NCBI GenBank assembly: GCA_001769385.1
Contig: MEPB01000070.1
Span: forward strand, 62,001-126,000
Reading direction: 5' to 3'
DNA length: 64,000 bases
Origin: Bacteroidetes bacterium RIFCSPLOWO2_12_FULL_35_15
GTDB lineage: Bacteria > Bacteroidota > Bacteroidia > 2-12-FULL-35-15
Part shown: positions 120-35,479 of the stretch, one piece after another
Position numbering within the stretch: position 1 is the first letter of the stretch
Layout: the number at the start of each line of letters is the position of its first letter
Made by a program: the position numbers and the translations under genes
The notes under the pieces: generated by a model
What the model saw: only the letters and a program-made list of their open reading frames with translations
The model's database searches: none
Told to the model about the DNA's origin: nothing

Positions 120-422
120 ATGCAAATTTCTTTACAACCATCAAACAGAACAAAAGTTAGAAAAACAAAAATGTTTATTGAAGGGTTTTTAACAATTCAA
201 TACGCAGGCCAGTTTTTAGAAAAAACAAAAGACACATTGTGTAATTATGACATTATTGATATTGTTGTGAAGAACGTTCAAGATATAGATTTAACTTTTA
301 TTCAACTAATTGTTTCAATGAAAAAGGTTAAGGAAGAAAAGAAAATTAAAATAATATATGAGCTAAGTAGCGAGCATAACAATTTGTTAAAGAACTGCGG
401 ATTCGAAAATCTATTTATTTAA
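120..422 (+). CDS. STAS-domain protein
   Basis: This is a 100-residue single-domain protein with the STAS (anti-sigma-factor antagonist) pattern: alternating strands, then a DxT-x-x-Q turn (DLTFIQL) where family members carry the phosphorylatable Ser/Thr, followed by a helix and an IIYELSS strand. STAS proteins act as phospho-switches that bind kinase-like partners. It lies 36 bases after the preceding stop and upstream of the first cheY-cheA set, so it probably feeds partner-switch information into that system. A SpoIIE phosphatase and a SiaB kinase are encoded further downstream, but a link to them is speculative. The start is the only ATG that gives the full domain. Confidence 0.7.
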   Translation: MQISLQPSNRTKVRKTKMFIEGFLTIQYAGQFLEKTKDTLCNYDIIDIVVKNVQDIDLTFIQLIVSMKKVKEEKKIKIIYELSSEHNNLLKNCGFENLFI

Positions 423-985: not shown

Positions 986-1351
986 ATGAAAAAAAGAATC
1001 TTAATTATAGATGATTCTGAAAGCATACGTGAACTGCTTGGCAATGCGCTTGAAAATGCGGGGTATGATGTTATTAAAGCAATTGATGGAAAAGATGGTG
1101 TTTCGAAATTAGAAGAACCTAATATTTTCCTGATAATTTCTGACTTAAATATGCCGCAAATGGATGGAATTGAAGTAATAAAACATTTGCGCAAACATCC
1201 GGTATATCAATTCACACCTATTATTGTTTTAACAACCGAATCGCAGGAAGCTAAACGAATGGAGGCAAAAGAAGCTGGCGCTACAGGTTGGATGACAAAA
1301 CCTTTTAATACAGATAAATTAATAACCGTTATTAAAAAGATTATTCGCTAA
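986..1351 (+). CDS. cheY: CheY-like single-domain response regulator
   Basis: The 121-residue receiver domain has the acidic pair D9-D10, phospho-acceptor Asp53 in SDLNMPQMDG, the switch Thr (VLTTES) and the Lys in the TKPF motif. There is no output domain, so it works by binding a target, as CheY does. The stop overlaps the cheA start by one base (TAATG at 1349-1353), so it is translationally coupled to the kinase that most likely phosphorylates it. This is the first of three stand-alone CheY genes in the window and the most canonical in sequence. Confidence 0.9.
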   Translation: MKKRILIIDDSESIRELLGNALENAGYDVIKAIDGKDGVSKLEEPNIFLIISDLNMPQMDGIEVIKHLRKHPVYQFTPIIVLTTESQEAKRMEAKEAGATGWMTKPFNTDKLITVIKKIIR

Positions 1352-3417
1352 TGGATAATATGAAACACATATATATCGAGGAGGCCAAGGAGTTATTTGA
1401 AAGTCTCGAAAAATCATTATTAGTTCTCGAAAAATTCCCGAATGACAAAACGGCTATAAGTGAAGTTTTTCGGATAATGCACACAATAAAAGGAAGTAGC
1501 GGCATGTTTGGCTATACAAACATTACACAGTTTCTTCACAATCTCGAAACAATATACGATTTGATCAGAAATGAAAAACGTCAACTTTCCAAAGAAATAC
1601 TTGATGTTACGCTTCAATCACTCGATCATTTGAAAGTAATAATACATGATGATGAATTAATTTTCGGTAATAATAAAAAAAAGCATAACGAACTTTTAAT
1701 AACAATTGAATTTCTTATTAATGAAAATGGGGCGGAAAAAACTGAATCCATTATTGAAAACGAGGAAGCGGTGTCGTCATTAGAATGGAGCACATACTAC
1801 ATTAAGTTTATCCCTAGTGTTGAAATTTTAAAAAAGGGAACGAACCCTCTTTATTTAATCGATGAACTTCATTCTTTGGGAGAATGTATTGCTTTGCCAA
1901 GAATGAAAGAACTGTGTAGTCTTGAACTTACAGATCCTTCATGTTGTTACACTGCCTGGGAAGTTTTTATTGCCAGCAATTCAAGTATTGAAACGTTAAA
2001 AGAAGTGTTTGTATTCGTTGAAAATGAATGCACTTTAACCGTTTCAGAAATAGCACCTTTTAATTTAATTGCCGATAAAACTTTTTGCAATACCTTTTGT
2101 TCAAATACCCTTGAGGCTGATTTTATAAATACAGAAGACATAAATGAATGGGTGGATAATCAAATTCAGAATGAGAATAAACAATCAAATTCTAAAGCGA
2201 TTACTGTACCAAAACATTACACCGAAATAATAAATCAAAAGGAAAAAAGTATAACGAGCATACGTGTTTCATCCGATAAATTAGATGAACTGATGGGCAT
2301 AGTGAGTGAACTTGTAACTACTCAAGCCGGCTTAAAATTACTTGCAGAAAATACAAATAACATGCATTTAGATGCTTTTTCCGAAACCATTGAAAAGCTG
2401 ACAAGAAGATTAAGAGATGTTTCATTTGGCATGACCTTAATTCCTGTAAATACAATGTTCGGACGTTTTCAAAGACTCGTTCGCGATATCTCATATGATT
2501 TAAACAAAGAAATTGACTTCGTTACCGAAGGTGGCGAAACAGAATTAGACAAAACAATTATCGAAAGCCTTACAGATCCTTTGATGCATATATTACGAAA
2601 CTGCTTAGATCATGGTATTGAAAATGCAGAAGAACGAAAGAAAAAAGGGAAATCACCAAAAGGTAAAATTACATTAAAAGCATACTATTCAGGAGCATCG
2701 GTTTACATACAGGTTTCAGATGATGGCAAAGGTATAGATCTCGATAAAATAAGATCCAAAGCAATTGAAAAAGGTTTAATTCAGCACGATTCTATAATGA
2801 GCGATAAGGAAATTCTTGAGCTTATTTATGCTCCGGGTTTTTCCACAGCCGAAAAAATTACGGGTGTTTCCGGTCGCGGTGTTGGGATGGATGTTGTTAA
2901 ACGCAATATTTCCAATTTGCATGGGGAAATAAGTACAGAAACAGAAATTGACCAAGGATCCAAATTTAGTATTAAACTTCCTCTAACGCTATCAATCATT
3001 GATGGTTTACTCGTGAAAATTGGAAACGTTTTTTATATAATTCCTTTGTCGGTTGTTGATAAATGTTATGAAGTAAAAAGAAACGAGCTTGATAATTTTA
3101 ATAAACTAATTGTTTTTGATGGGAACCAAATTCCATTTTTAGATTTAAGAGTAGAGTTTGAAGTTCATGAAAAGGAACCCCTGATTCAGCACGTAATAGT
3201 AGTAAATAATGAAGATAGAAAAGTCGGACTAGGTATCGATTCAATTGTTGGTGAGTATCAAGCGGTAGTAAAACCATTAGGAAAACATTATAATGGTCAG
3301 GATTATATTTCTGGAGCAACAATACTTGGAGATGGCACTATTGCATTAGTCTTGGATTCAAACAGAATAATAAAAAGATATAAAATTAACCATTTAAGAA
3401 CGGAGGAATTAGTATGA
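1351..3417 (+). CDS. cheA: Chemotaxis histidine kinase CheA
   Basis: This 688-residue CheA has, in order: an Hpt domain with phospho-acceptor His44 (MHTIKGSSG); a second globular region at about 150-225, in the place of the P2 response-regulator docking domain; a P3 dimerisation segment (about 270-345); the P4 ATPase with N-box HILRNCLDHGIE, D-box DDGKGID and G-box SGRGVGMDVV; and a C-terminal CheW-like P5 domain. It passes phosphate to CheY and CheB in a receptor-CheW array. It overlaps cheY by one base and cheW by four. All expected catalytic motifs are intact. It is a paralogue of the CheA at 14,479. Confidence 0.96.
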   Translation: MDNMKHIYIEEAKELFESLEKSLLVLEKFPNDKTAISEVFRIMHTIKGSSGMFGYTNITQFLHNLETIYDLIRNEKRQLSKEILDVTLQSLDHLKVIIHDDELIFGNNKKKHNELLITIEFLINENGAEKTESIIENEEAVSSLEWSTYYIKFIPSVEILKKGTNPLYLIDELHSLGECIALPRMKELCSLELTDPSCCYTAWEVFIASNSSIETLKEVFVFVENECTLTVSEIAPFNLIADKTFCNTFCSNTLEADFINTEDINEWVDNQIQNENKQSNSKAITVPKHYTEIINQKEKSITSIRVSSDKLDELMGIVSELVTTQAGLKLLAENTNNMHLDAFSETIEKLTRRLRDVSFGMTLIPVNTMFGRFQRLVRDISYDLNKEIDFVTEGGETELDKTIIESLTDPLMHILRNCLDHGIENAEERKKKGKSPKGKITLKAYYSGASVYIQVSDDGKGIDLDKIRSKAIEKGLIQHDSIMSDKEILELIYAPGFSTAEKITGVSGRGVGMDVVKRNISNLHGEISTETEIDQGSKFSIKLPLTLSIIDGLLVKIGNVFYIIPLSVVDKCYEVKRNELDNFNKLIVFDGNQIPFLDLRVEFEVHEKEPLIQHVIVVNNEDRKVGLGIDSIVGEYQAVVKPLGKHYNGQDYISGATILGDGTIALVLDSNRIIKRYKINHLRTEELV

Positions 3418-8935: not shown

Positions 8936-9199
8936 ATGATTGCAGAAGTTAAAATATTGTTTTTTATTTTTCTAGCTTATATAATTGTGCTTATTCTAAT
9001 TAGATTGGTTCTTATAAAAAACGGTTTTTCATTTTCTGTATGCCCTTCATGCAAAAAAAAAATTACAAGAACAAAAAGAAATAAACTGTTGAGATTAACA
9101 GGAAGACTTACCTTAGGTGTTCTCTCCTTTAGGATAGTTAAATGTACCGAATGCAACTATAATGGTTTTTTTTTACGGAAATTTCGCCTGAAACATTAA
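8936..9199 (+). CDS. Small membrane protein with a zinc-ribbon
   Basis: The 87-residue protein starts with one hydrophobic helix (about 5-28) and continues into a basic domain with two Cys pairs, CPSC at about 38-41 and CTEC at about 72-75, which would form a zinc ribbon facing the cytoplasm. I do not recognise a named family. It starts 15 bases after the CheC gene, so the two are probably co-transcribed. Confidence 0.6.
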   Translation: MIAEVKILFFIFLAYIIVLILIRLVLIKNGFSFSVCPSCKKKITRTKRNKLLRLTGRLTLGVLSFRIVKCTECNYNGFFLRKFRLKH

Positions 9200-9507
9200 T
9201 AAATTAGCCTCCAGCACTGCTTTGTAGTTCTTGATTATTTTAAAAAGATGTAAAAAAAGCAGTCGAAAAAAGCAAGCTATTCTACTTTAAAAATGAGTTA
9301 TTAGATGCATGTTGAATATTAGTATGCTAACCTTAACGTCAAGTTTTTCATTTATTAGTTGAATTATCCTACGTATTTTATCGTACCCTAATTTATCAAA
9401 ACATGATATTCGTCATGTTTTTTACTTATTCGAAATGAGGTGTTAAAACGTATTGCCTTCCTCCCAATACATTCATTGCTTTGTATCATAAATTAAATCT
9501 ATAAAAA
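9200..9507. other. Intergenic stretch between the two che modules
   Basis: These 308 bases carry no convincing ORF. The clearest element is a 9-bp perfect inverted repeat at 9398-9406 and 9413-9421 (AAAACATGA / TCATGTTTT, 6-base loop) followed by T residues. It could be a weak terminator for the preceding gene or an operator for parA. No clean promoter match was found. Confidence 0.5.
9398..9421 (+). terminator. AT-rich hairpin upstream of parA
   Basis: A perfect 9-bp stem with a 6-base loop is followed by T bases. The stem contains only two G/C pairs, so it may equally be an operator dyad about 85 bases before the parA start. Confidence 0.35.
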
Positions 9508-13428: not shown

Positions 13429-14468
13429 TGAAAATGCCAATAAAAATTTTATTGGCTGATGATTCAGGTTTAATGCGATTGTTGGTAAGTGACATTTTAA
13501 AATCTGATAAGGATATTGAAGTTATTGCAACAGCATCAAACGGAAAAGATGCAGTCGAAAAAACTATGCTTCATAATCCCGATGTGGTTGTAATGGACAT
13601 GAACATGGGCGAATATGATGGTTTGTATGGTATTGAAAAAATCATGAAAAATCACCCCACACCAATTGTTATTTTGAGTGCAGTAGGTAATACAGATTTT
13701 CCAATAATTGAAAAGGGATTAAAATTAGGAGCTGTTGATTATGTGAATAAACCCGCACAAAACAATACAAAAGTAAAAGAAGTAGAACAAGAATTAATTC
13801 AAAAAATAAAAGCGGCTGCTACGGCAAATATAGAAGCCGGAAAAGTAATAAACGAAATAAAAATAAATAGCTACACCCATACTTTTATAAATTTAAATTA
13901 TGATGTGGTAGTAATTGGTTCATCGACTGGTGGACCTGGTGCTGTGGAAAGTTTAATAAAAAATTTACCTGATAATATGGCTGTCCCGGTTTTAATTGCA
14001 CAACATATGCCGTCTAATTTTGTTCCCTCATTTGCAGCGAGATTAAACGAATTAAGTTCATTAAATATTAGTATGGCTCGCAGAGGAGACCTGCTAAAAC
14101 CCGGCAGTATATTTATTGCTCCCGGGAGCAGAAATATGGTAGTTAAAAGAAATGAAACGGGTGAAGTAGAAATTGATTTCATTTCAAAAACATTTAAAGA
14201 ATTTAACTATCCATCAGTTGATTGTTTAATGATTTCAGTCGCAGAAGCATATGGTAATAGAGCTATTGGCGTTATTTTAACAGGAATGGGCAAAGATGGT
14301 GCACAAGGTATGAAAGCAATAAAAGAAAAAGGTGGATATACCATCGCTCAAAATAAAGAAACCTGTATTGTTTATGGAATGCCAAAAGAAGTCGTTGATA
14401 ATGGAAATGCGCTTGCCATTGTTCCTATTAATGAAATAGGCGGATTCATTGTTAGTTGTTTGTCATAA
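13428..14468 (+). CDS. cheB: CheB methylesterase response regulator of module B
   Basis: The 346-residue protein has a receiver domain (D11-D12, Asp57 in MDMNMGEYDG, where Gly replaces the usual Pro) and a methylesterase domain with Ser in GSSTGGPGA, His in AQHMPSN and Asp in LTGMGKDGA. It should demethylate the soluble receptor. It overlaps cheY by one base. The sequence differs strongly from the CheB at 6,703, so the two modules have their own adaptation enzymes. Confidence 0.95.
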   Translation: MKMPIKILLADDSGLMRLLVSDILKSDKDIEVIATASNGKDAVEKTMLHNPDVVVMDMNMGEYDGLYGIEKIMKNHPTPIVILSAVGNTDFPIIEKGLKLGAVDYVNKPAQNNTKVKEVEQELIQKIKAAATANIEAGKVINEIKINSYTHTFINLNYDVVVIGSSTGGPGAVESLIKNLPDNMAVPVLIAQHMPSNFVPSFAARLNELSSLNISMARRGDLLKPGSIFIAPGSRNMVVKRNETGEVEIDFISKTFKEFNYPSVDCLMISVAEAYGNRAIGVILTGMGKDGAQGMKAIKEKGGYTIAQNKETCIVYGMPKEVVDNGNALAIVPINEIGGFIVSCLS

Positions 14469-14478
14469 AAATTTAATT

Positions 14479-16239
14479 ATGGATAAAGAAAACGAATACA
14501 AAGAAATGTTTTTGGCAGAGGCGCTGGAAAATTATGAAGAACTGAATAAGTTATTCACCGCGCTTGAAAAAAACGGAAACGATAAAAAAGCGATAGATGC
14601 AATATTTCGCATCACACATACACTTAAAGGTAATGCGATGGGAATGGGCTTTGACGCAATTGCCGGATTAAGTCATGTTTTAGAAGATGTGTTTTCGGAA
14701 GCAAAAAATGGTTCGCTGATTTTAGATCCCGGTTTATTTGATATACTGTTTAAAGCAAATGACAAATTAGGCGAATTAATTAATGCAATCACTACTAACG
14801 AAGATGTAAAATACAAAGGCATTAAAACAAAACTGGAAGTTTTTTTACGTAATGTTAAAAAACCTATTGGGACGGAAGGTAATAAAATTGAAACAAAAGA
14901 AAATGTTGCGAATATTGAAAAAAGCTTAACATCCTCAGACATGGGGTCAACTTTCGTTGTTTCAAATGAAAGAGAAAAAGTGGAAAGTGAAGAAGATGAC
15001 AATCAACCCAAAGTTATTTTTTCTGATCTGGTACAAATACCTGTTCGTAAGTTAGATGGCCTGATGAATTTAGTGGGAGAATTAATAATTGAGCGGGATA
15101 GTTTGATCGCTCGAGGATTAGAAAGTGGCGGAAGCACCTCTGAATATGCTCGTTTGCAACGAATAACTTCTGATCTGCAATATGGTGTAATGGATGTTAG
15201 ACTGGTGCAGGTAGGGTTTTTATTTAATAAATTTCACCGTGTATTAAGAGATGCAGCTTCCCTTGAGGAAAAAAAAGCAAACCTTATTTTAGAAGGCACA
15301 GAAATTGAAATCGACAGAAACATTTTAAAAATCATGAGCGATTCGCTCATTCATTTAATTAGGAATTCTATCGGTCATGGAATTGAAAAACCGGAAGCTC
15401 GCAGGCTTGCCGGAAAAAATGAAGTTGGTAGTGTTTATTTAAAAGCGCGAAATGAAAAAGATTCTGTTATAATTGAAATTACTGATGATGGATACGGTAT
15501 TGACCCAAACGCTATTAAGAAAAAAGCGATTGAAAAAAAAATAATAACTAAAGAATTTGCAGATTCATTAACAAGAGATGAAATTCTTCAGATAATTTTT
15601 GAACCTGGCTTTTCGAATGCCGAAAAAATCACGGAAGTTTCCGGGAGAGGAGTTGGAATGGATGTTGTAAAAAGAGCAACTGAATCAATTGGGGGTAAAA
15701 TTAGTTTAAAAACGGAATTAGGAAAAGGTTCAACTATTACACTTTCTCTCCCATCCTCCATGGCAGTGAAGGGGGCTTTATTATTTGAATTAAACCAGCA
15801 AGAATATGCAATACCATTAACCTATACAGAGGCTGTTGTGTCTCTTAAAAAAAATGACCTGCATAAAGTCAGCAGCGGTATTATTGCCAATTATTTAGGG
15901 AAAACAATCTCTGTCATTTTTCTGAAAGATTTATTTGCTATGAATTCATTTGATGAATTATACCAGGAAAATGCATTACATAAATCGTATGCAAACTGTA
16001 AAGCTGAAAATAAATTAGAAGTAATGGTTGTTTCTTATAACAATAAATATTTTGGTTTAGTGGTTGATAAACTTTTACAACAAAAAGAAATAGTGGAAAA
16101 AACGCTTTCAAGGCCAATAGACACGTTGGATCTGTTTAGTGGTGCAACAATATTAGGAAATGGCAGTGTTTGTCTGGTCCTTGATATTGCAGCAATTGCA
16201 AATGTATGTTTTAAAGAAAAATTCATTAAAAAGGTATAA
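14479..16239 (+). CDS. cheA: Chemotaxis histidine kinase CheA of module B
   Basis: The 586-residue CheA has Hpt (His47 in THTLKGNA), a linker without an obvious P2 domain, P3 (from about 185), P4 ATPase (N-box HLIRNSIGHGIE, D-box DDGYGID, G-box SGRGVGMDVV) and a CheW-like P5. I use ATG 14479; an earlier in-frame start at 14449 would overlap cheB and add ten unsupported residues. The N-box Asp present in the other CheA (DHG) is Gly here. It is about 100 residues shorter than the first CheA because P2 is missing, so it may phosphorylate its regulators less selectively. Confidence 0.95.
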   Translation: MDKENEYKEMFLAEALENYEELNKLFTALEKNGNDKKAIDAIFRITHTLKGNAMGMGFDAIAGLSHVLEDVFSEAKNGSLILDPGLFDILFKANDKLGELINAITTNEDVKYKGIKTKLEVFLRNVKKPIGTEGNKIETKENVANIEKSLTSSDMGSTFVVSNEREKVESEEDDNQPKVIFSDLVQIPVRKLDGLMNLVGELIIERDSLIARGLESGGSTSEYARLQRITSDLQYGVMDVRLVQVGFLFNKFHRVLRDAASLEEKKANLILEGTEIEIDRNILKIMSDSLIHLIRNSIGHGIEKPEARRLAGKNEVGSVYLKARNEKDSVIIEITDDGYGIDPNAIKKKAIEKKIITKEFADSLTRDEILQIIFEPGFSNAEKITEVSGRGVGMDVVKRATESIGGKISLKTELGKGSTITLSLPSSMAVKGALLFELNQQEYAIPLTYTEAVVSLKKNDLHKVSSGIIANYLGKTISVIFLKDLFAMNSFDELYQENALHKSYANCKAENKLEVMVVSYNNKYFGLVVDKLLQQKEIVEKTLSRPIDTLDLFSGATILGNGSVCLVLDIAAIANVCFKEKFIKKV

Positions 16240-26352: not shown

Positions 26353-28131
26353 ATGAACTTAACAAGCAAAATATGGAATTTTCTCTATAGAGGAATTTCC
26401 GTTCGTAAGAAAATTCTCGTTTCCTTTTTTTGGCTCTCTATTATGCTTCCAATTACATTTACCTGGAATGTTTATTATCAAAGCCATCGAAAAACAGATG
26501 CCTTGTCCATAGATATTGCAGGACGTACCCGAATGTACACTGAAAAAGTATTGTTAAATGCTTATGTTTCACTGAACGATGATGAAATTACAAGCAAAAA
26601 GGCTAAAGAAGATCTGCAAAGATCAATAGATGAACTGGGAACATATTATGAAATATTAAAAAATGGAGGCAATGATCCCCTGCCTGAGAATATTAATGTT
26701 TATATTGAAAAAATTGATGATGCAAAAATTGTTTTTCTTCTGAAAGAAATTGAGCCTGTATTTTTAAGGTATAAAAGTTTTATTGATATTTTAATTAAAG
26801 AACCAAAATATATTGAACAAACCGGAATTGATACAAATTTGGATGCTACACAACCGGAAATACCTGCTAATATTAAATCAGAAAAAGTCCTTAATCCGAA
26901 AATCAAACAAGCTATTTTAGAATTGGATCACTATTCTGCAGAAAATGAATTACTTGCCGATAACCAAAAACTGGTAAGTCTTTATGTAAAAGATCTGGAA
27001 AATAAAGACCGTTTATTCCTCATTTATTTTAGCATCTTTTTCATTTTTAACATAGTAATTATCTTATTTAATATGGGGCTGATATTCATATACATTGTTA
27101 AGCCGATCGATGAAATTTCAAAAGCAGCTGATCAGATAGCCTCTGGTGATATCAATACAAAAATATGGTATGATATCAACGATGAATTAGGTAAGGTCGT
27201 AGGTTCAATTAATACCCTTACAGGTAATCTCCGTAAAACAACTGAATTTATTACAAGGATCGGTAAAGGAGAGTTTGATGCCGAATACAATGTAAAAACT
27301 GTTGAAGGATTGGAAGATAAAGATAATCTTGGTTTCGCACTGGTTAATATGCGTAATCAATTAAAGGTTATTTCAGAGGAAGATAGAAAACGTAATTGGG
27401 TAACGGAAGGATTGGCAAAGTTTGGGGAACTTCTCCGTAAAGGGTCGGATGACGTTGAAACGCTGTCTTATGACATCATTTATAATCTTGTAAAATATCT
27501 GGATGCCAACCAGGGTAGTATTTTTATTGTTACAGAAATAGAAAAAAATAAGGAAGCACTTGAATTAAAAGCTTGTTATGCATGGGACAGAAAAAAATTC
27601 AAAAATATGAGAATTAATTTGGGAGAAGGATTGGTAGGACAAGCATGGCAAGAAAATGAAACAATTTATCTTTCGGATTTCCCGGATAATTATATTGAAA
27701 TAACATCCGGACTTGGAAAAGCGAATCCTAAAAATCTGCTGATAGTTCCATTGAAACTAAATGATAAAACATATGGAATAATTGAGATTGCTTCTTTCAA
27801 AGAGTTTCAGCAATATCAACGGGAGTTTATTGAAAAAATCGGAGAAAGTATTGCTTCAACAATTTCCAGCGTAAAAATAAATTCACAAACTAAAAAACTA
27901 TTAGAGGAAACTCAGCAACAGTCGGAGGAAATGCGTGCCCAAGAAGAAGAAATGCGCCAAAATATGGAAGAAATGCAGGCTACTCAAGAAGAAATGACCC
28001 GCAAGGAATTGGAAACAAAAAAAATAATAATGGAATTGAAAAAGAAAGAAGAGGAGGCAAGATCACAAATGGAAGAATTTCGTCAGAGCTTTGAAGAAGC
28101 AAAAATGCAATTAGAAAAAAATCAAAAATAA
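26353..28131 (+). CDS. PilJ-like/HAMP/GAF membrane sensor with a Glu-rich coiled coil
   Basis: The 592-residue protein has a membrane helix (about 20-42), a periplasmic PilJ/NarX-type sensor with the SIDIAGRTRMYTEKVL motif, a second helix (about 220-250), HAMP segments (about 250-330), a GAF domain (about 345-500) and a C-terminal coiled coil rich in Glu/Gln (QQSEEMRAQEEEMRQNMEEM). It lacks both an MCP signalling tip and a kinase domain. The next two genes encode CheR and a CheB catalytic domain, so its Glu/Gln-rich coil is a plausible but unproven methylation target. Confidence 0.85.
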   Translation: MNLTSKIWNFLYRGISVRKKILVSFFWLSIMLPITFTWNVYYQSHRKTDALSIDIAGRTRMYTEKVLLNAYVSLNDDEITSKKAKEDLQRSIDELGTYYEILKNGGNDPLPENINVYIEKIDDAKIVFLLKEIEPVFLRYKSFIDILIKEPKYIEQTGIDTNLDATQPEIPANIKSEKVLNPKIKQAILELDHYSAENELLADNQKLVSLYVKDLENKDRLFLIYFSIFFIFNIVIILFNMGLIFIYIVKPIDEISKAADQIASGDINTKIWYDINDELGKVVGSINTLTGNLRKTTEFITRIGKGEFDAEYNVKTVEGLEDKDNLGFALVNMRNQLKVISEEDRKRNWVTEGLAKFGELLRKGSDDVETLSYDIIYNLVKYLDANQGSIFIVTEIEKNKEALELKACYAWDRKKFKNMRINLGEGLVGQAWQENETIYLSDFPDNYIEITSGLGKANPKNLLIVPLKLNDKTYGIIEIASFKEFQQYQREFIEKIGESIASTISSVKINSQTKKLLEETQQQSEEMRAQEEEMRQNMEEMQATQEEMTRKELETKKIIMELKKKEEEARSQMEEFRQSFEEAKMQLEKNQK

Positions 28132-28220
28132 AAAATTGAGGTATTGTTTACAAATGAGCTCATTAAATATTCATACTCCTGTTTTAGAAGGAGAGCTTTA
28201 TAAATAGAATAATTTTAAAA

Positions 28221-29045
28221 ATGTCAGAAGAAATAGATATTAAATCAATCAGAAATATAGTTGCTGCTGTAAAGGACACCTATAATTTTGATTTTGGAAA
28301 TTATGCTATAACATCCTTTAAAAGAAGAATTGAAAGGGTTTTAAGCGTTTTTAATTGTAAAAATGTGGATGAGTTAATTGAAAAGATCAAAGAAGATAAA
28401 ATATTTTTTGAATCTTTTTTAAAAGAAATTACGGTGAATACTACAGAAATGTTCCGTGATCCATCCTTTTGGCGTAAGCTTAGAGAAGACGTTTTACCAC
28501 TTATTGCTACGCATCAAAATATCAGGATATGGCATGCAGCCTGTTCATCAGGAGAGGAAGTGTATTCTATGGCAATTTTATTAAAAGAAATGGATCTGCT
28601 GGACAGAACTCAAATTATCGCAACAGACATTAACCAGGACGTTATAAGTATTGCGAAAAAAGGAATTTACGCCATCAGAAACATGGAGTTAAATCAAAGT
28701 AATTACGAACGATTTGCCGGAAAAGGAATGTTAAGTGATTATTTTTCTGAAAATGATGGTTTTGCATGTATGGATAGATCATTAATTGCAAACGTTAATT
28801 TTAGAACCCATGATCTTGTTTTAGGAAGTTCATTTTCAAAATTTGATTTGATCTTATGTAGAAACGTGTTGATTTATTTTAATATGACACTTCAGGATCG
28901 TGTTGTGGAGCTATTTAGCAACAGTCTTTTTAAAAATAGTTTTTTGGCTGTTGGATCAAAAGAAACAATTGCCTGGTGTAAAAGCATTGATAAATTCTCA
29001 ACCTTTTCAATTGAAGAAAAAATATATCAGAAAATAAAAGAGTAA
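28221..29045 (+). CDS. cheR: CheR-type methyltransferase of module C
   Basis: The 274-residue CheR has the N-terminal helical domain and the SAM domain with AACSSGEEVYSMAILL, ATDINQD and FDLILCRNVLIYFN. No chemoreceptor with an MCP domain is encoded in this module, so its substrate may be the GAF/coiled-coil sensor upstream. It is paired with the CheB-like gene 51 bases downstream. Confidence 0.93.
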   Translation: MSEEIDIKSIRNIVAAVKDTYNFDFGNYAITSFKRRIERVLSVFNCKNVDELIEKIKEDKIFFESFLKEITVNTTEMFRDPSFWRKLREDVLPLIATHQNIRIWHAACSSGEEVYSMAILLKEMDLLDRTQIIATDINQDVISIAKKGIYAIRNMELNQSNYERFAGKGMLSDYFSENDGFACMDRSLIANVNFRTHDLVLGSSFSKFDLILCRNVLIYFNMTLQDRVVELFSNSLFKNSFLAVGSKETIAWCKSIDKFSTFSIEEKIYQKIKE

Positions 29046-29096
29046 TTCAATTGAGAATTTATTATTCACAAATTAGAATTTAAGAGTTTAGATTTA

Positions 29097-29669
29097 ATGG
29101 GGAGGCTTGAAATAAATAATTATAAAGCGATTGTCATTGGTGGTTCTGCAGGTAGTTTTCCTGTTGTTACCGATATTTTAGCGAATCTGCCAAAAGGATT
29201 AAACATCCCAATAATATTATGTTTACACAGGTTAAAGCATATACGGCATGGATTTATTGAAGCACTGAATTTAAAATCAAAATATCCCGTGCAGGAACCG
29301 GAAGATAAGGAACGTATTCACCCGGGTAAAATTTATCTGGCACCATCAAATTATCATTTGTATGTTGAACTCGGTTATACTTTCGCCTTATCAACTGATG
29401 ATATGGTAAATTATTCGCGCCCTTCCATCGATCTGACCTTTGAAACAGCTTCGTACGTTTACAAAGACAAGTTAATTGGTATCATTTTATCCGGAGCCAA
29501 TAGTGATGGAGCTGAAGGGATAAAAAGAATTAAAGAAAGAGGTGGATTAACAATTGTACAGGACCCTAAAGAAGCAAGCATAACAGCAATGCCGGATGCT
29601 GCACTAAAAAAAACAGAAATTGATCTGGTGCTGAGTACGAAAGAAATTATTAATTTTTTAAACAGATAA
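29097..29669 (+). CDS. Stand-alone CheB methylesterase domain (no receiver)
   Basis: The 190-residue protein is only the catalytic domain of CheB, with Ser in GGSAGSFPV, His in CLHRLKH and Asp in LSGANSDGAEG. Without a receiver it cannot be activated by phosphorylation and is probably constitutive or regulated by partners. Together with the CheR just upstream it forms a methylation/demethylation pair separate from the two che modules. The next ATG follows its stop directly. Confidence 0.92.
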   Translation: MGRLEINNYKAIVIGGSAGSFPVVTDILANLPKGLNIPIILCLHRLKHIRHGFIEALNLKSKYPVQEPEDKERIHPGKIYLAPSNYHLYVELGYTFALSTDDMVNYSRPSIDLTFETASYVYKDKLIGIILSGANSDGAEGIKRIKERGGLTIVQDPKEASITAMPDAALKKTEIDLVLSTKEIINFLNR

Positions 29670-30461
29670 ATGGCTGATCTGAAAAAATATAAGAAAAATT
29701 ATGTTGTGCTTTTTGTCATCATTCTATTGGCATTTTTATTCATTTTTATAAATCTTGCTACTATCAATACTACTTACAAAGATGTTTCGAGAGAAATTAA
29801 TCTGTTGTATTTTTTTAATAGTGTCCTGATAATTTCATTTTCCTTGTTCTATTTTATTTTTATTGGATTGAAAAGGAAAGAAATTCAAGTAGTTCAGAGC
29901 AATATGAATGATACTAGTTCCCCAATTTCTGATAAGGAAGAGGTAATTAAAGAACGGAATGAAATTTATGAAAATGAACTAAAAAATAAATTGAGTCATT
30001 TAGAAAACACCCTTTCATCTGAGAAAACAAAAGAAAAGATGTTGGAAGCTTTCTTGAATATTCTTGTACAAAAAACTGATTCTGTTCAGGCAGCACTGTT
30101 CCTGACAGCTGAAAAAGAAGATAAAAAAATATTACGATTTAGCCACGGATATGCTTTTTATGTTCCGGAAGATGATCTTCTTGAATTTCAATTTGGAGAA
30201 GGCTTGAGCGGACAAGTTGCCATCGATAAAAAATTAATAAACCTTTATGAGATAAAAGTTGATCGCATGCCGGTGTATTCAGGTATGGGTAGCTCTGTTC
30301 CTCAAAACCTGCTGATTTGTCCATTGCTAAATAATAATGTAACGCTTGGAGTTGTTGAATTAGCATCGTTCAGAAAATATGAATTACAAGATGAACAATT
30401 TATTGAAAAAGCATCATCGTTAGTAGGCAGCCTTTTAGGAAAAACGACAAATACAATTTAA
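29670..30461 (+). CDS. Two-helix membrane protein with a GAF domain
   Basis: The 263-residue product has two hydrophobic segments (about 10-29 and 44-65), a coiled-coil linker and a GAF domain (about 115-260) that shares FGEGLSGQVA and PQNLLICPLL with the GAF domains of the flanking sensors (GEGLVGQAW; PKNLLIVPL). It has no output domain. It abuts the CheB gene with no spacer and precedes the phosphatase by 15 bases. It could be a ligand-binding subunit for the phosphatase or for the CheR/CheB pair. Confidence 0.8.
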   Translation: MADLKKYKKNYVVLFVIILLAFLFIFINLATINTTYKDVSREINLLYFFNSVLIISFSLFYFIFIGLKRKEIQVVQSNMNDTSSPISDKEEVIKERNEIYENELKNKLSHLENTLSSEKTKEKMLEAFLNILVQKTDSVQAALFLTAEKEDKKILRFSHGYAFYVPEDDLLEFQFGEGLSGQVAIDKKLINLYEIKVDRMPVYSGMGSSVPQNLLICPLLNNNVTLGVVELASFRKYELQDEQFIEKASSLVGSLLGKTTNTI

Positions 30462-30476
30462 GTTGGGAGAAAAAAA

Positions 30477-33473
30477 ATGAATAAAGATAAAAATTCAGTT
30501 GATTTATTTTTACTACTCGGATTTATTGGAGCTTGCCTCGGTATTCTATTTCCGGTCACATCCCTTTTACTGAGTTTCTTTTTTACTTTCAAATTCTTTT
30601 CTGCATTAGAGGGTTCTGTATTTAAAATCTTAATTGATCTTCATGCTTCAGGTTTCTATCAAATTATTGTTGATTGTACACCCTTCCTTTTCTTGTTTCT
30701 GGTGTTTTATGGTTGGAAATTTGTAAGAAAAAGTATTGACGAATCTCATACAGATTTCAGGACAATAAACAAATTCGATTTTATTTTAACCGGGCCTGTC
30801 AAAAAATTTATGGGGATTTCATTGGCAGTAGGATTGATTCCCTTCTTAACATTTATTATTATTTCCTTTTTCAAAGAGGATAATCTTGTAAATAAATCAA
30901 AAGGTATTTACATGATTATTTTAATATTGATTGCACTTACTGCAATAATCTACGCTATTATTTTTTCTTTAGTATATCTTCAAAATATTCAACTGAAAAC
31001 ATATTTAAACCGGACTATGAATTACAAAAGACTCTTGCTTGCCGGTATCGCTTCTTTTCTGATTGGTTGGATCATTCCGGTGGTTTTATGGGCAATTGAT
31101 ATTTCCCAATCTTATTTACCTTTTAATTTCGAAAGTATTGGGCATATTCATTCGCTTAATAATTTGCATTGGCTATTCGATATAACTCCTTTCGCGATAG
31201 GTAATATTGTTTTAGTTGGGGGGCTACTGTTGAATAATTCATATAGTATTTTGAAAAGTCAACTTATCGCCCGGGAAGAAAGTATTGATAATGTGAGAAT
31301 ATTTGCAGAACAGATCGGGGAGGGTAATCTTGATTCTGAAATAAAATTAGCAGAAGGTGATGAAAATCTGACGAATGCGATCATCAGAATGCGGGACAAT
31401 CTCAGGAAATCCGATGAAGAAGAAAAAGACAGGCAATGGAGTGTTGAAGGACTTGCAAACCTTGGAGAAGTTCTGAGGGCTTATTCAAATAAAGAAGAAC
31501 TTTCTTATCATGTCCTGATCTTTTTAATTCGCAAGATCAGGGCTATTCAGGGTGCATTTTATATTACAGAACTGGATCAGGATGAGAAAGCCACAATAAA
31601 GATGGTTGCTTGTTATTCTTACGACAGAAAAAAATTTGTAAGCAAAACGTTTAAGTTTGGTGAAGGGCTTGTCGGGCAAGCGGCTCTGGAAAAAGAATAC
31701 ATTTACCGTACTGAAATACCTGCTGATTACGCCACATTTACTTCCGGCTTACTTGGCGATAAAAAACCGAAGAGCTTGTTTATTCTTCCACTCATCTCCA
31801 ATGAAAAATTATTCGGGTTGATCGAATTTGCTTCATTAAATTCCTTTGAACCTCTTGAAATTAGTTTTCTGAAAGAAGTAAGTCTTGTTATTGCTCAGAC
31901 AATTTTTAATTTGAATGTTAATGAACAAACAAGTAAGTTGCTTGATGATGTTAATAAAAGTCATAAACTGATGCAAGGACTTCTGGAAAATGCTTCTGAA
32001 GTAATTACAATTTATGAAAAAGATGGTACTGCGCGTTATGTCAGTCCTTCTATTGAAAATATTTTTGGATATTCCACCGATGAAATTATAGGTCGGAGCG
32101 GAAGAAAATTAATTCATCCGAAAGGAAGGGATACCTTCGATAAGTTACTAGCTGATCTTTTAGAGTTTCCTTCACAAACATTTGAAGCCCAATTTAGCTA
32201 TACTAAGAAAAACGGAGCACGGATTTGGACAGAAACTACCGGAAAGAATATGTTGAATGATCCCGCTATCCAAGGATTAGTGCTTAACACAAGGGATATT
32301 ACGATGCGCAGGAAAGCAGAGAAAGAAGAAAAAAAACGTGGACAGATGCAAGCGCTTTCTGAAAACAGTATTGATTTAATTATGCGTCTGGATACCAATG
32401 GGCAATTATATTATGCTAATCCTGTAATTGAAAGATTTTTCGGAAAAAATCCGGAATATTTTCTTCATAAAGATATCAGAACAACCGGATTGGCTGATTC
32501 TTTTGTTGATCTGATTTCAGAAATAATTCTGGAAGTTTCTGAGACAAGAAAAAATTCCCATTTCGAAACAACTTATATTACCGGTGATGGAAAAAAAGTT
32601 TTGAATATTAATGCCATCCCTGAGTTTAATGAAGATAATAATGTGGAAACAATTTTATTTGTTGCTCATGATATTACGGAAGCAAAACTCATTGAACAAC
32701 AGATTCAGGTAGCTCATAAAAAGATTACCGAAAGTATAAACTATGCACATAGAATTCAACGTTCAATTTTACCAACAATAACTACAATTAAGTCAATATT
32801 TCCTGAATCCTTTATGATGTATTTACCAAAGGATATTGTCAGTGGGGATTTTCCATGGATAAAAGAAAAAGGAGACTATACTTATCTTGCCGCTGTGGAT
32901 TGCACTGGTCATGGAGTTCCTGGAGCTTTGATGTCATTTATTGGTTATTTTATTCTGAATGAGATCACCGTACATGAGGAGATTTTAGACACAGGAATAA
33001 TATTAGACAGACTTCACAAAGGAGTGCAACAAACATTAAAACAGGATTCAAACGATAGCGATTCTAAAGATGGAATGGACATTGCATTTTGCAGGTTTAA
33101 TACAAAAAAGAAGGAGTTGCAATTCTCCGGTGCACATCGGCCGCTTTATTATGTGCATGATAATTTACTAACTGAAATTAAAGCCGATAAATATCCTATT
33201 GGTGGTATGCAATACAAGACACGTAAAGAATTCGTTACACATACCATAAATTATTCAGAAAATGATTCTGTCTTTTTCTTTACGGATGGTTTACCTGACC
33301 AGTTTAATGTGGAAGGTCATAAATTTATGAGCAGACAGGTAAAAGAGATCATTGAAAATAATCAGGATAAAAGTTTTGAGCATTTAAGCTGGTTAATGGA
33401 AACTACGTTTGAAAAATGGAAAGGTGATCATAAGCAAATGGATGATGTGCTTTTAATAGGAATAAAATTTTAA
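30477..33473 (+). CDS. Membrane GAF-PAS-PAS SpoIIE/PP2C phosphatase (SiaA-like role)
   Basis: The 998-residue protein has about six membrane helices (within 1-260), a HAMP-like segment, a GAF domain (about 335-480), two PAS domains (about 500-745) and a C-terminal SpoIIE phosphatase domain with SGDFPW, DCTGHGVPGALMS, FFTDGLPDQ and a final DDVLLIG, which keep the metal-binding Asp residues. Such phosphatases remove phosphate from STAS or SiaC proteins. The next gene is a SiaB-type kinase, so the pair likely works as opposing enzymes on one phosphoprotein. That phosphoprotein's gene next door is broken. Pro replaces the usual Tyr in GDFYW. Confidence 0.92.
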   Translation: MNKDKNSVDLFLLLGFIGACLGILFPVTSLLLSFFFTFKFFSALEGSVFKILIDLHASGFYQIIVDCTPFLFLFLVFYGWKFVRKSIDESHTDFRTINKFDFILTGPVKKFMGISLAVGLIPFLTFIIISFFKEDNLVNKSKGIYMIILILIALTAIIYAIIFSLVYLQNIQLKTYLNRTMNYKRLLLAGIASFLIGWIIPVVLWAIDISQSYLPFNFESIGHIHSLNNLHWLFDITPFAIGNIVLVGGLLLNNSYSILKSQLIAREESIDNVRIFAEQIGEGNLDSEIKLAEGDENLTNAIIRMRDNLRKSDEEEKDRQWSVEGLANLGEVLRAYSNKEELSYHVLIFLIRKIRAIQGAFYITELDQDEKATIKMVACYSYDRKKFVSKTFKFGEGLVGQAALEKEYIYRTEIPADYATFTSGLLGDKKPKSLFILPLISNEKLFGLIEFASLNSFEPLEISFLKEVSLVIAQTIFNLNVNEQTSKLLDDVNKSHKLMQGLLENASEVITIYEKDGTARYVSPSIENIFGYSTDEIIGRSGRKLIHPKGRDTFDKLLADLLEFPSQTFEAQFSYTKKNGARIWTETTGKNMLNDPAIQGLVLNTRDITMRRKAEKEEKKRGQMQALSENSIDLIMRLDTNGQLYYANPVIERFFGKNPEYFLHKDIRTTGLADSFVDLISEIILEVSETRKNSHFETTYITGDGKKVLNINAIPEFNEDNNVETILFVAHDITEAKLIEQQIQVAHKKITESINYAHRIQRSILPTITTIKSIFPESFMMYLPKDIVSGDFPWIKEKGDYTYLAAVDCTGHGVPGALMSFIGYFILNEITVHEEILDTGIILDRLHKGVQQTLKQDSNDSDSKDGMDIAFCRFNTKKKELQFSGAHRPLYYVHDNLLTEIKADKYPIGGMQYKTRKEFVTHTINYSENDSVFFFTDGLPDQFNVEGHKFMSRQVKEIIENNQDKSFEHLSWLMETTFEKWKGDHKQMDDVLLIGIKF

Positions 33474-33556
33474 TGATCTATTCTCATTATAAAGTCCTAA
33501 AAAATTTTTAAGTTTATACACAGCATAGAGAACTAAGTAAATTAAAATATTAATAA

Positions 33557-34150
33557 ATGAGTTCCGAATCCCTTAAGTCAGAAAGCCATTCTATGAAGTT
33601 TGTTTATAATTTTCATAAACAAATGAGAGAAAAAAATCTTAATCTCATCTATGAAGGGGCTTTTACACAAGAAATTACAAAAGCTGTTCTGACAATGGCA
33701 GAGCGGAAAATGGATGAGATACATGAAGAACCGAATGTAAAAAAGAAAGTATTCAATATTATGGTCGAATGTTTACAAAACATTTGTAAGCATGGATCCG
33801 AATCAGGAACAAATGAAGGGAAAAGCGAGGGAATTAGTTGGGGAATAATTATGGTTGGGCAGCAAGACAATTCTTATTTTGTGACCACAGGAAATTATAT
33901 TAATAACAATTCTGTGGAAGGGTTAAAATCGAAATTATTAGAAATTAATACCTTAGATAAAGAGGGCTTAAAAGAGCTATATAAATTAATTATAAAAACA
34001 GTAGATCTTTCCCCAAAAGGTGGAGCCGGCTTAGGGTTAGTTGATATTGCAAGGAAATCCGGAACCAAATTAGAATATGATTTTGAAAAAATAAATGATT
34101 TTTACTCTTTTTATTCTTTGCTGATACGTATTCCAAGAATAATTGAATAA
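33557..34150 (+). CDS. siaB: SiaB-family protein kinase
   Basis: The 197-residue product matches the SiaB family (DUF6272): a modified GHKL ATPase fold with N-box FNIMVECLQNICKHG, a strand-turn SYFVTTGNYI and a G-box GGAGLGLVDIARKSG. In Pseudomonas, SiaB phosphorylates SiaC while the SiaA phosphatase reverses it, controlling a diguanylate cyclase and aggregation. Here it follows the SpoIIE phosphatase gene by 83 bases and precedes a siaC pseudogene. It looks intact, so either another SiaC exists elsewhere or the switch is newly decaying. Confidence 0.88.
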   Translation: MSSESLKSESHSMKFVYNFHKQMREKNLNLIYEGAFTQEITKAVLTMAERKMDEIHEEPNVKKKVFNIMVECLQNICKHGSESGTNEGKSEGISWGIIMVGQQDNSYFVTTGNYINNNSVEGLKSKLLEINTLDKEGLKELYKLIIKTVDLSPKGGAGLGLVDIARKSGTKLEYDFEKINDFYSFYSLLIRIPRIIE

Positions 34151-34175
34151 TTTGTAATGATCTTAATCAACAAAA

Positions 34176-34505
34176 AAGGAAGTCATAAATTTAGCCGGTA
34201 CAGAAGACACTCCAAAAATCATCCTTGATCAGGTACAAAAAATTTAAGAAATTTCAGGATGATCATTGCCTGAAGATGCTCTTGAATTCTATGCTCCTGT
34301 TATTAGATGGGTTGGATGATTTTGCCGGAGAAAAACCGCGAGAATTGGAAATCTACATTAAACTCGAATATTTTAATACAGCATCATCAAAATTGATCTT
34401 GGATATTTTTAGTAAATGGAAAGTCTGAATGAAAATGCCATACATGTTTCCATAAAATGGTTTTATGCAAAAGACGATACTGGTAAATTTAAGCAGTTAA
34501 AATAA
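34176..34505 (+). pseudogene. siaC: Degraded siaC (DUF1987) phosphoprotein gene
   Basis: Reading across frames gives the typical SiaC order: NLAGTEDTPKIILD, EISG-SLPEDALEFYAPVIRW, LEYFNTASSK, then IHVSIKWFYAKDD. It is broken by a lost start codon (AAG at 34176, where ATG is expected), in-frame stops TAA and TGA (the latter where the family has Arg in SGRS), a one-base insertion after the RW codon pair near 34,308, and a one-base deletion near 34,418. The C-terminus is also short. The small ORF at 34225-34428 is just a fragment of this gene. The multiple lesions argue against a single sequencing error. Confidence 0.85.
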
Positions 34506-34507
34506 TT

Positions 34508-35479
34508 TCAAAACATAACCAATATCTCACCCCTCCAGATTAAAATAACCACACCGGCAATCGCTATTAATGCCCCTAAAACAGATTTAAGCAATATTTT
34601 TTCTTTATAAATGATATAGGAAAGTGGCAAAGCAAAGATAGGTACCAACGAAAAAATAGTTTGTGCTACCGATGGTTTATTATGCAATAAAGAAATGGCG
34701 TACATCGAAAAACTAACCCCAATCACCGGTCCGAAAATAGTTCCCAACAGGGTATAAATATTCCCATTGTTTTTATTGGTAAATACAGGTTGTAACAGTT
34801 GATTTAATTGCCCTCTGGAAATGGTGATCGCATATATTAGTACTGTTGCTGAAACCATTCGTATCCATGTTGCCTGAAAAAATGGCAAATCAAAATTATT
34901 CTGCTTATAGGTAAATCCTTTATTGGCAAGCACTACACCAACACCCTGGCAAATGGCTGCCAATACCCCAAATAAAATACCTCTTTCGATTTTACCATGT
35001 CCATGGTCTTTCATTTTTGATTTTTCTTTTTTGCTTAATGTCATCCAGATAACTCCTCCAATAGTAACCAGAATGCCGAAGATCCCAATAAAATTAATGC
35101 GTTCGCCTACTAAAAAATAGGCCGACAGTAATGCTGAAGTGGGAGCGAGGGTTGAAAAAATACTTCCTATGCGCGGACCTAAAATGGCATAAGATGTAAA
35201 ACTAAAATAATCACCCAAAGCAAGACCAACAATCCCCGATAAACCAAACCATAACCAATGTTGAGGCAATGGGGATGTAAATAATTGCAGAAAAGAAACA
35301 GGAAGAAAAAAAATGGTGATTAAGGTCAGGAAAAAAACTGCAAGTACTAATCGAAAGTGGTTAACAGTATTCGGACCCGATCTACGTGCTGCCTCTGTAA
35401 ATGGAAATATACAAATGCTCCACGATAAAGTAGTGCCAAATGCAATGAGTTCACCAAAATAAGCAAATCCGGAAGACAT
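34508..35479 (-). CDS. EamA/DMT-family transporter
   Basis: The 323-residue protein has about ten hydrophobic helices in two EamA repeats (for example LAFGTTLSW near the start, WMTLSKKEK between halves, and GVLAAICQGVGVVLANKG opening the second half). Such proteins export small metabolites across the inner membrane; the substrate cannot be told. It is convergent with the siaC pseudogene, with the two ends only two bases apart. Confidence 0.9.
   Translation of the reverse strand: MSSGFAYFGELIAFGTTLSWSICIFPFTEAARRSGPNTVNHFRLVLAVFFLTLITIFFLPVSFLQLFTSPLPQHWLWFGLSGIVGLALGDYFSFTSYAILGPRIGSIFSTLAPTSALLSAYFLVGERINFIGIFGILVTIGGVIWMTLSKKEKSKMKDHGHGKIERGILFGVLAAICQGVGVVLANKGFTYKQNNFDLPFFQATWIRMVSATVLIYAITISRGQLNQLLQPVFTNKNNGNIYTLLGTIFGPVIGVSFSMYAISLLHNKPSVAQTIFSLVPIFALPLSYIIYKEKILLKSVLGALIAIAGVVILIWRGEILVMF

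Follow-up and report, generated by a model that had tools for sequence, protein, structure and literature searches.

A Sia-type partner switch with intact enzyme genes and a siaC pseudogene in a Bacteroidota genome, and a candidate SiaC partner in a paralogous operon

The closest described counterpart of the locus studied here is the threonine-phosphorylation switch SiaABC(D) of P. aeruginosa, in which, according to the portions of two reports consulted (PMC7647112, PMC8457831), SiaA and SiaB together determine whether SiaC is phosphorylated at Thr68, and unphosphorylated SiaC activates the cyclase SiaD. As described in those portions, that system resembles ours in its SpoIIE-type SiaA, kinase SiaB and target SiaC, encoded in the same order. 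Further likeness comes from PDB 6kko, whose chain A (deposited as a putative serine phosphatase) is matched by our SiaB at E 1.6e-12 and whose chain C is matched by the SiaC of a relative, and from a phosphosite motif, LEYFNTASSK, that remains legible in our siaC. In contrast to P. aeruginosa, the locus here has a dead siaC and a siaA that includes GAF and PAS domains and stands behind CheR, CheB and GAF genes, no SiaD-like gene comes next in the run as read, and the gene after the siaC remnant is transporter-like and lies on the other strand; an ABC transporter gene instead follows siaC in 9 of 13 related loci. Also comparable are Bacteroidota operons of the form siaB-siaC-ABC transporter (L055-L058, L060, L063, L064 and nine of L103-L123), which have the same siaB, siaC order, a siaC frame of 120 to 126 codons between siaB and the transporter and, in most of those read far enough, siaA upstream as in our locus; four of them (L056, L057, L058, L063) also share its upstream CheR-CheB-GAF genes. 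Unlike these operons, the species studied here and its relative G022 spread the functions over two operons, with one siaC missing in each species.

The window, meaning the whole 64,000-nucleotide stretch analyzed, spans positions 62001-126000 of contig C70 in a 5.39-Mb draft genome of 110 contigs (G000). A plus-strand gene run, headed by a gene for a PilJ-like membrane protein, ends in siaB and is followed by the siaC remnant (Table 1). Our main comparison is G022, a genome of the same genus that has the same operon with a window-type siaB at 80% identity, an intact siaC of 125 codons and, at its contig start, a partial ortholog of the gene heading the run; that contig matches the metagenome-assembled genome (MAG) record Kiruna_bin-08168, CAISYK010000830.1. 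Window-type siaB occurs in 2 of 36 genus genomes, the next best match in any other genus genome after G022 being 48% identical. Genes for CheR and CheB precede siaA in 5 of the 13 related loci, and a GAF-domain gene does so in G022 and five other loci.

Table 1. Positions of the Sia locus and other features within the window
Feature	Position	Strand	Basis
PilJ-like/HAMP/GAF membrane protein with Glu/Gln-rich coiled coil	26353..28131	+	Pfam matches
CheR-like methyltransferase	28221..29045	+	NCBIfam CheR, 85 bits, below model cut-off of 435
CheB-like methylesterase domain without receiver	29097..29669	+	C-terminal part of NCBIfam CheB, 125 bits, below cut-off of 293
GAF-domain protein	29670..30461	+	Pfam GAF_2
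siaA, GAF-PAS-PAS-SpoIIE (PP2C-type) phosphatase, intact	30477..33473	+	Pfam domains
siaB, SiaB-family kinase (by family match), intact	33557..34150	+	Pfam, NCBIfam, motifs
siaC pseudogene	34182..34502	+	Pfam match, alignment with G022 siaC, tree
Transporter-like gene, intact	34508..35479	-	Open frame; C-terminus compared with relatives
100-aa protein, called STAS in the sequence-only reading	120..422	+	No STAS model match

Two features of the surroundings merit record. Between 26353 and 29669, stand-alone CheR and CheB genes lie next to the gene for the HAMP/GAF membrane protein, whose coiled coil is rich in Glu and Gln (EEMRQNMEEMQATQEEM). Within 26353-34150 no CheA or CheW gene was seen; the coiled coil could be methylated and feed a Sia switch rather than a chemotaxis kinase. 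As read from translations, two CheA-like genes (1351-3417 and 14449-16239), other chemotaxis-like genes and histidine kinases lie on the contig between this Sia operon and a second one described below. A scan of 33300-34800 gave 5 promoter-like sites, against 7.7 in shuffled sequence, and no terminator.

A siaC pseudogene beside intact siaA and siaB

The sequence-only reading had described the SpoIIE phosphatase and SiaB kinase genes as intact and siaC as dead, having lost its start codon, with two in-frame stops, two frameshifts and a shortened end, and closer analysis bore out both descriptions. The frame of siaA is open over 998 aa; its SpoIIE domain scores 66 bits against PF07228 (cut-off 25), and the acidic residues of five motifs, which we take to be metal-binding, align in 10/10 sequences. 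Also open, at 197 aa, siaB scores 148 bits against DUF6272 (PF19788; cut-off 26.6) and 179 bits against the NCBIfam model SiaB_fam_kinase (NF038262; cut-off 85); against the P. aeruginosa-type equivalog NF038264 it reaches 81.6 bits, below the cut-off of 225, and we therefore regard it as a family member and not an equivalog. It keeps both motifs common to all 11 SiaB sequences aligned, ECLQN and GGAGLG[LF] (here GGAGLGL). In the consulted part of PMC7647112, the Glu at position 61 of P. aeruginosa SiaB is predicted to be catalytic, and on our reading this would be the Glu aligned between 6kko and the window SiaB.

The siaC remnant matches Pfam SiaC (PF09345) at 62 bits over profile positions 2-117 when read through 8 stops, and at 28-31 bits when one open piece is taken alone; its final in-frame stop ends at 34505. 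Measured against the intact siaC of G022, it has lost its start codon, acquired two in-frame stops and been shifted twice in frame, by a one-base insertion and a one-base deletion, and approximately its last 20-25 codons find no good alignment. The stop of the neighboring gene, putatively called a DMT-type transporter, adjoins the lost end, and since the C-terminus of that transporter is ordinary compared with 9 relatives, the end of siaC was evidently lost close up to the transporter gene. A chance resemblance to SiaC is excluded because the remnant and G022 siaC form one group in the SiaC tree (support 100/99) and because most differences between them fall at third codon positions (25/114, 13/115 and 53/115 at positions 1, 2 and 3). 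We also considered a 67-aa frame at 34225-34428 with a TTG start as a working mini-SiaC and rejected it, as it covers only SiaC profile positions 37-75 and its first 25 residues are unmatched by the profile.

The comparison with relatives that the sequence-only reading had proposed found an open siaC after siaB in all 13 related loci of the named genome collection, including that of G022, the nearest relative found, and the loss is therefore recent; a further set of loci from relatives (L015-L042), mostly of another Sia type, has an open siaC in 28/28. That the lesions are errors of sequencing or assembly we find scarcely credible: the genome is indeed a draft of 110 contigs, but six separate lesions fall within about 320 bases, the window elsewhere holds long unbroken frames of up to 1147 aa, and a three- to four-fold longer amino-acid branch is seen in siaC only.

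Decay of the pathway, or other substrates

The loss of siaC might be the first step in a decay of the pathway, with siaA and siaB to follow, as the sequence-only reading had allowed. Amino-acid branch lengths estimated with four to nine outgroups (window/G022) were 0.113/0.153 for siaA, 0.097/0.165 for siaB, 0.257/0.086 for siaC, 0.026/0.133 for CheR, 0.092/0.133 for CheB and 0.260/0.433 for GAF, which makes siaC the sole gene of the six with the longer branch on the window side; rates of siaA and siaB are thus not raised. Changes at outgroup-conserved columns (window/G022) number 0/4 in siaB, 6/6 in siaA and 6/1 in siaC. From the branch excess we estimated by hand that some 0.09 neutral changes per base (range about 0.06-0.13) have accumulated since siaC died. 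Neutral drift simulated at 0.09 would give siaB about 37 amino-acid changes, compared with about 19 on its whole observed branch, and siaA about 12 stops, compared with none observed; at 0.04, 17 changes are expected in siaB, which does not discriminate from the observed value, and the case against decay is therefore carried mainly by siaA and by lesion density. Counted for this purpose as 5 lesions in 119 codons (two stops, two frameshifts and one end loss), the remnant sets a density at which about 42 would be expected in siaA and about 8 in siaB, and both have none. Stop-free siaA arose in 0 of 300 simulated runs at 0.06 or more changes per site. For siaB alone the simulations are more accommodating to decay, as it stayed free of stops in 14-7% of runs at 0.06-0.09 changes per site and in 26% at 0.04, and third codon positions still dominate the differences in siaC, as a recent loss would have it. 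Given that siaA and siaB are free of both the acceleration and the lesions seen in siaC, we disfavor decay and rate it as unlikely.

Nor do we see much room for the proposal that SiaA and SiaB have turned to another target, such as the product of 120..422 or another STAS-type protein. SiaC is structurally close to STAS-type proteins, according to the portions of PMC7647112 and PMC8457831 consulted, which lends the idea some appeal. The protein in question, which the sequence-only reading took for a STAS protein and a possible substrate, matches no STAS model in Pfam or NCBIfam, has no homolog at E 0.001 in 58 other genomes, is encoded 33 kb away and is without a tblastn match (E 1e-4) in the 13 related loci, which include short ones. 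Against PDB it returns only chance matches (E 0.29 and worse), and its single-sequence structure model has a pLDDT of 44 and no usable fold. On its lack of a STAS match and of homologs we set this protein aside as a substrate, and we hold a switch to any such alternative substrate to be very unlikely.

Other SiaC proteins in the genome and genus

A search of the whole genome, also proposed by the sequence-only reading, found 13 SiaC domains besides the remnant, together with 12 SiaB domains. Each SiaB except that of the window has an intact SiaC within 1.5 kb; conversely, 2 of the 13 SiaC domains have no SiaB within that distance. Across 18 genus genomes, chosen from 35 genus relatives by assembly quality, a same-strand SiaB within 1.5 kb is missing for 34 of 90 SiaC domains, which makes it plausible that SiaC acts away from the kinase gene in this genus, and a kinase without SiaC is rare (3 of 66 SiaB domains). 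Two of these three (G019:C35) lie at a contig end; around the third (G026:C36; L068 4277-4825), the 10-kb stretch read contains no SiaC or SpoIIE gene. The genome studied here (G000) encodes 52 SpoIIE-type phosphatase domains, set against its 12 SiaB and 13 intact SiaC domains. Fused forms were also seen (SiaC-SiaC, SiaB-SiaC, SiaB-SiaB, and SiaC fused to about 245 residues that match nothing in Pfam; listed loci L045 12427-13248, L051 8605-9567, L046 8115-9212 and L043 7859-8962).

A relocated or duplicated window-type siaC can be dismissed, as the SiaC trees place no other SiaC of the genome in the clade of the remnant. The first of these trees included nine of eleven named L015-L042 loci, the other two having no plus-strand siaC frame; the second left out five genus rows and four from this genome, namely three fused-protein domains and the C40 domain at 9012-9374. 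The window enzymes might instead act on other SiaC proteins of the genome, for example the genus-wide one on C38 or the SiaB-less ones on C16 and C92, with nothing special about the second operon. The frequency of SiaC without a neighboring SiaB, here and in the genus, speaks for this, as do the apparently widespread occurrence of C38-type siaB with siaC in the genus and the presence of 2 SiaB and 8 SiaC in G011. However, the C38, C16 and C92 proteins are 30-41% identical to G022 siaC, compared with 51% for the SiaC of the second operon, in the C92 protein the phosphosite Thr is replaced by Ile, and none of the three has the reciprocal loss pattern described next. We regard this alternative as possible and rather doubtful.

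A second Sia operon with a reciprocal gap in G022

The second Sia operon lies on the opposite strand of contig C70 at 50.5-57.5 kb, 7 kb left of the window, and reads siaA (a short SpoIIE form of 331 aa), siaB1, siaB2, siaC, a gene for a 367-aa protein that ends in a SiaC domain, and an ABC transporter gene. Among the 13 SiaC domains, that of the second operon's siaC, at 54980-55330 of C70, is closest to G022 window-type siaC (51% identity, compared with 17-41% for the other 12), and it carries the same phosphosite motif, LEYFNTASSK. G022 has this operon too, on contig C1191, with siaB1, siaB2 and the transporter at 79%, 82% and 80% identity; there, only 100 bp and no siaC lie between siaB2 and the transporter, and the contig is unbroken at that point. 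When G022 was searched with the missing SiaC, the best match was its own window-type siaC (52%); the match at C1191 was confined to the initial 22 residues of the query, which overlap siaB2. In all 15 other distinct loci among the matches listed (7 among the related loci and 9 among L103-L123, minus L116, which equals L064; distinct as judged at 90% identity or more within the stretches read), a siaC stands between siaB and such a transporter. The pattern is thus reciprocal, in that the first siaC is lost and the second retained in this species, and in G022 the first is retained and the second missing; siaB2 of the second operon was found in the same 2 of 36 genus genomes as window-type siaB. 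The SiaC and SiaB trees both assign the two operons to distinct clades, which rules out a recent split of one operon into two and makes them older paralogs. Branches of the second operon measure 0.24 here and 0.049 in G022 for SiaB1, and 0.14 and 0.11 for SiaB2, so this operon is not clearly the better conserved of the two. G022 SiaB1 (L053 1-579, on C1191) lacks the glycine-rich motif GGAGLGL, which suggests that it may be a noncatalytic partner of SiaB2.

The ABCG-like transporter at L043 4523-7588 is longer at its N-terminus by about 240 residues, and it has relatives at E 1e-120 in at least 197 of 395 genomes of the class, some beside siaC. In seven related loci siaC is followed by a transporter of this family (L055, L056, L057, L058, L060, L063, L064), and its start is visible before the contig end in L059 and L061, completing the 9 of 13 given above; it was not seen after siaC in L062, L065, L066 or G022, whose contig ends after 0.2 kb. 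Among the matches listed, siaC lies directly 5' of the transporter in 12 of 30 loci examined, our own included, and 15 of 19 genus transporters have a SiaC within 25 kb, 9 of them on the same strand and 7 of these within 1.5 kb (19 of 21 genus rows listed were used; two G034 rows were left out). We regard the transporter as a possible SiaC-controlled output.

These results support the earlier suggestion that the switch still works through a second SiaC located elsewhere, and they make it specific, pointing to the SiaC of the second operon and to the reciprocal gap in G022. We propose, as a probable reading held with modest confidence, that window SiaA and SiaB now use the second-operon SiaC in trans and that G022 is the mirror image. 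The window operon would form the sensing part of a Sia partner switch that spans two operons and in which SiaA dephosphorylates and SiaB phosphorylates a SiaC protein; after the recent death of the local siaC in this species, both enzymes would act in trans on SiaC from the paralogous operon some 40 kb away, and the ABC transporter of that operon would be the likely output. G022 would present the opposite case, its transporter operon being without siaC and its window-type operon supplying SiaC. We infer that either SiaC could serve both operons and, from gene order, that SiaC may control the transporter; if both operons draw on one SiaC pool, either copy would thereby have become dispensable. 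A wider formulation, that the sensor/CheR-CheB operon and the ABC-transporter operon form a single switch through one interchangeable SiaC, with opposite copies lost in the two genomes and a transporter in place of a diguanylate cyclase as output, we advance tentatively, at somewhat less than even chances.

Several observations weigh against sharing. The two SiaC proteins are only about 51% identical, and the second operon brings a siaA and two siaB genes of its own and so does not need the window enzymes. The age of the two paralogous lineages and the longer SiaB1 and SiaB2 branches of this species in the second operon also count against it. Eleven more SiaC domains outside both operons could serve as well. 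The reciprocal pattern rests on two genomes, one of them, G022, a fragmented MAG (78% complete, 1290 contigs) in which a relocated siaC could therefore be unassembled.

A narrow search of titles and abstracts in the open-access literature returned none on a shared or reciprocally lost SiaC or on an ABC transporter as its output. Partner switches are generally portrayed as insulated. Related species that have each lost a different copy of the middle protein would offer a natural experiment on whether components are shared between paralogous switches, and the ABC transporter encoded after siaC in several operons is a candidate SiaC output in Bacteroidota.
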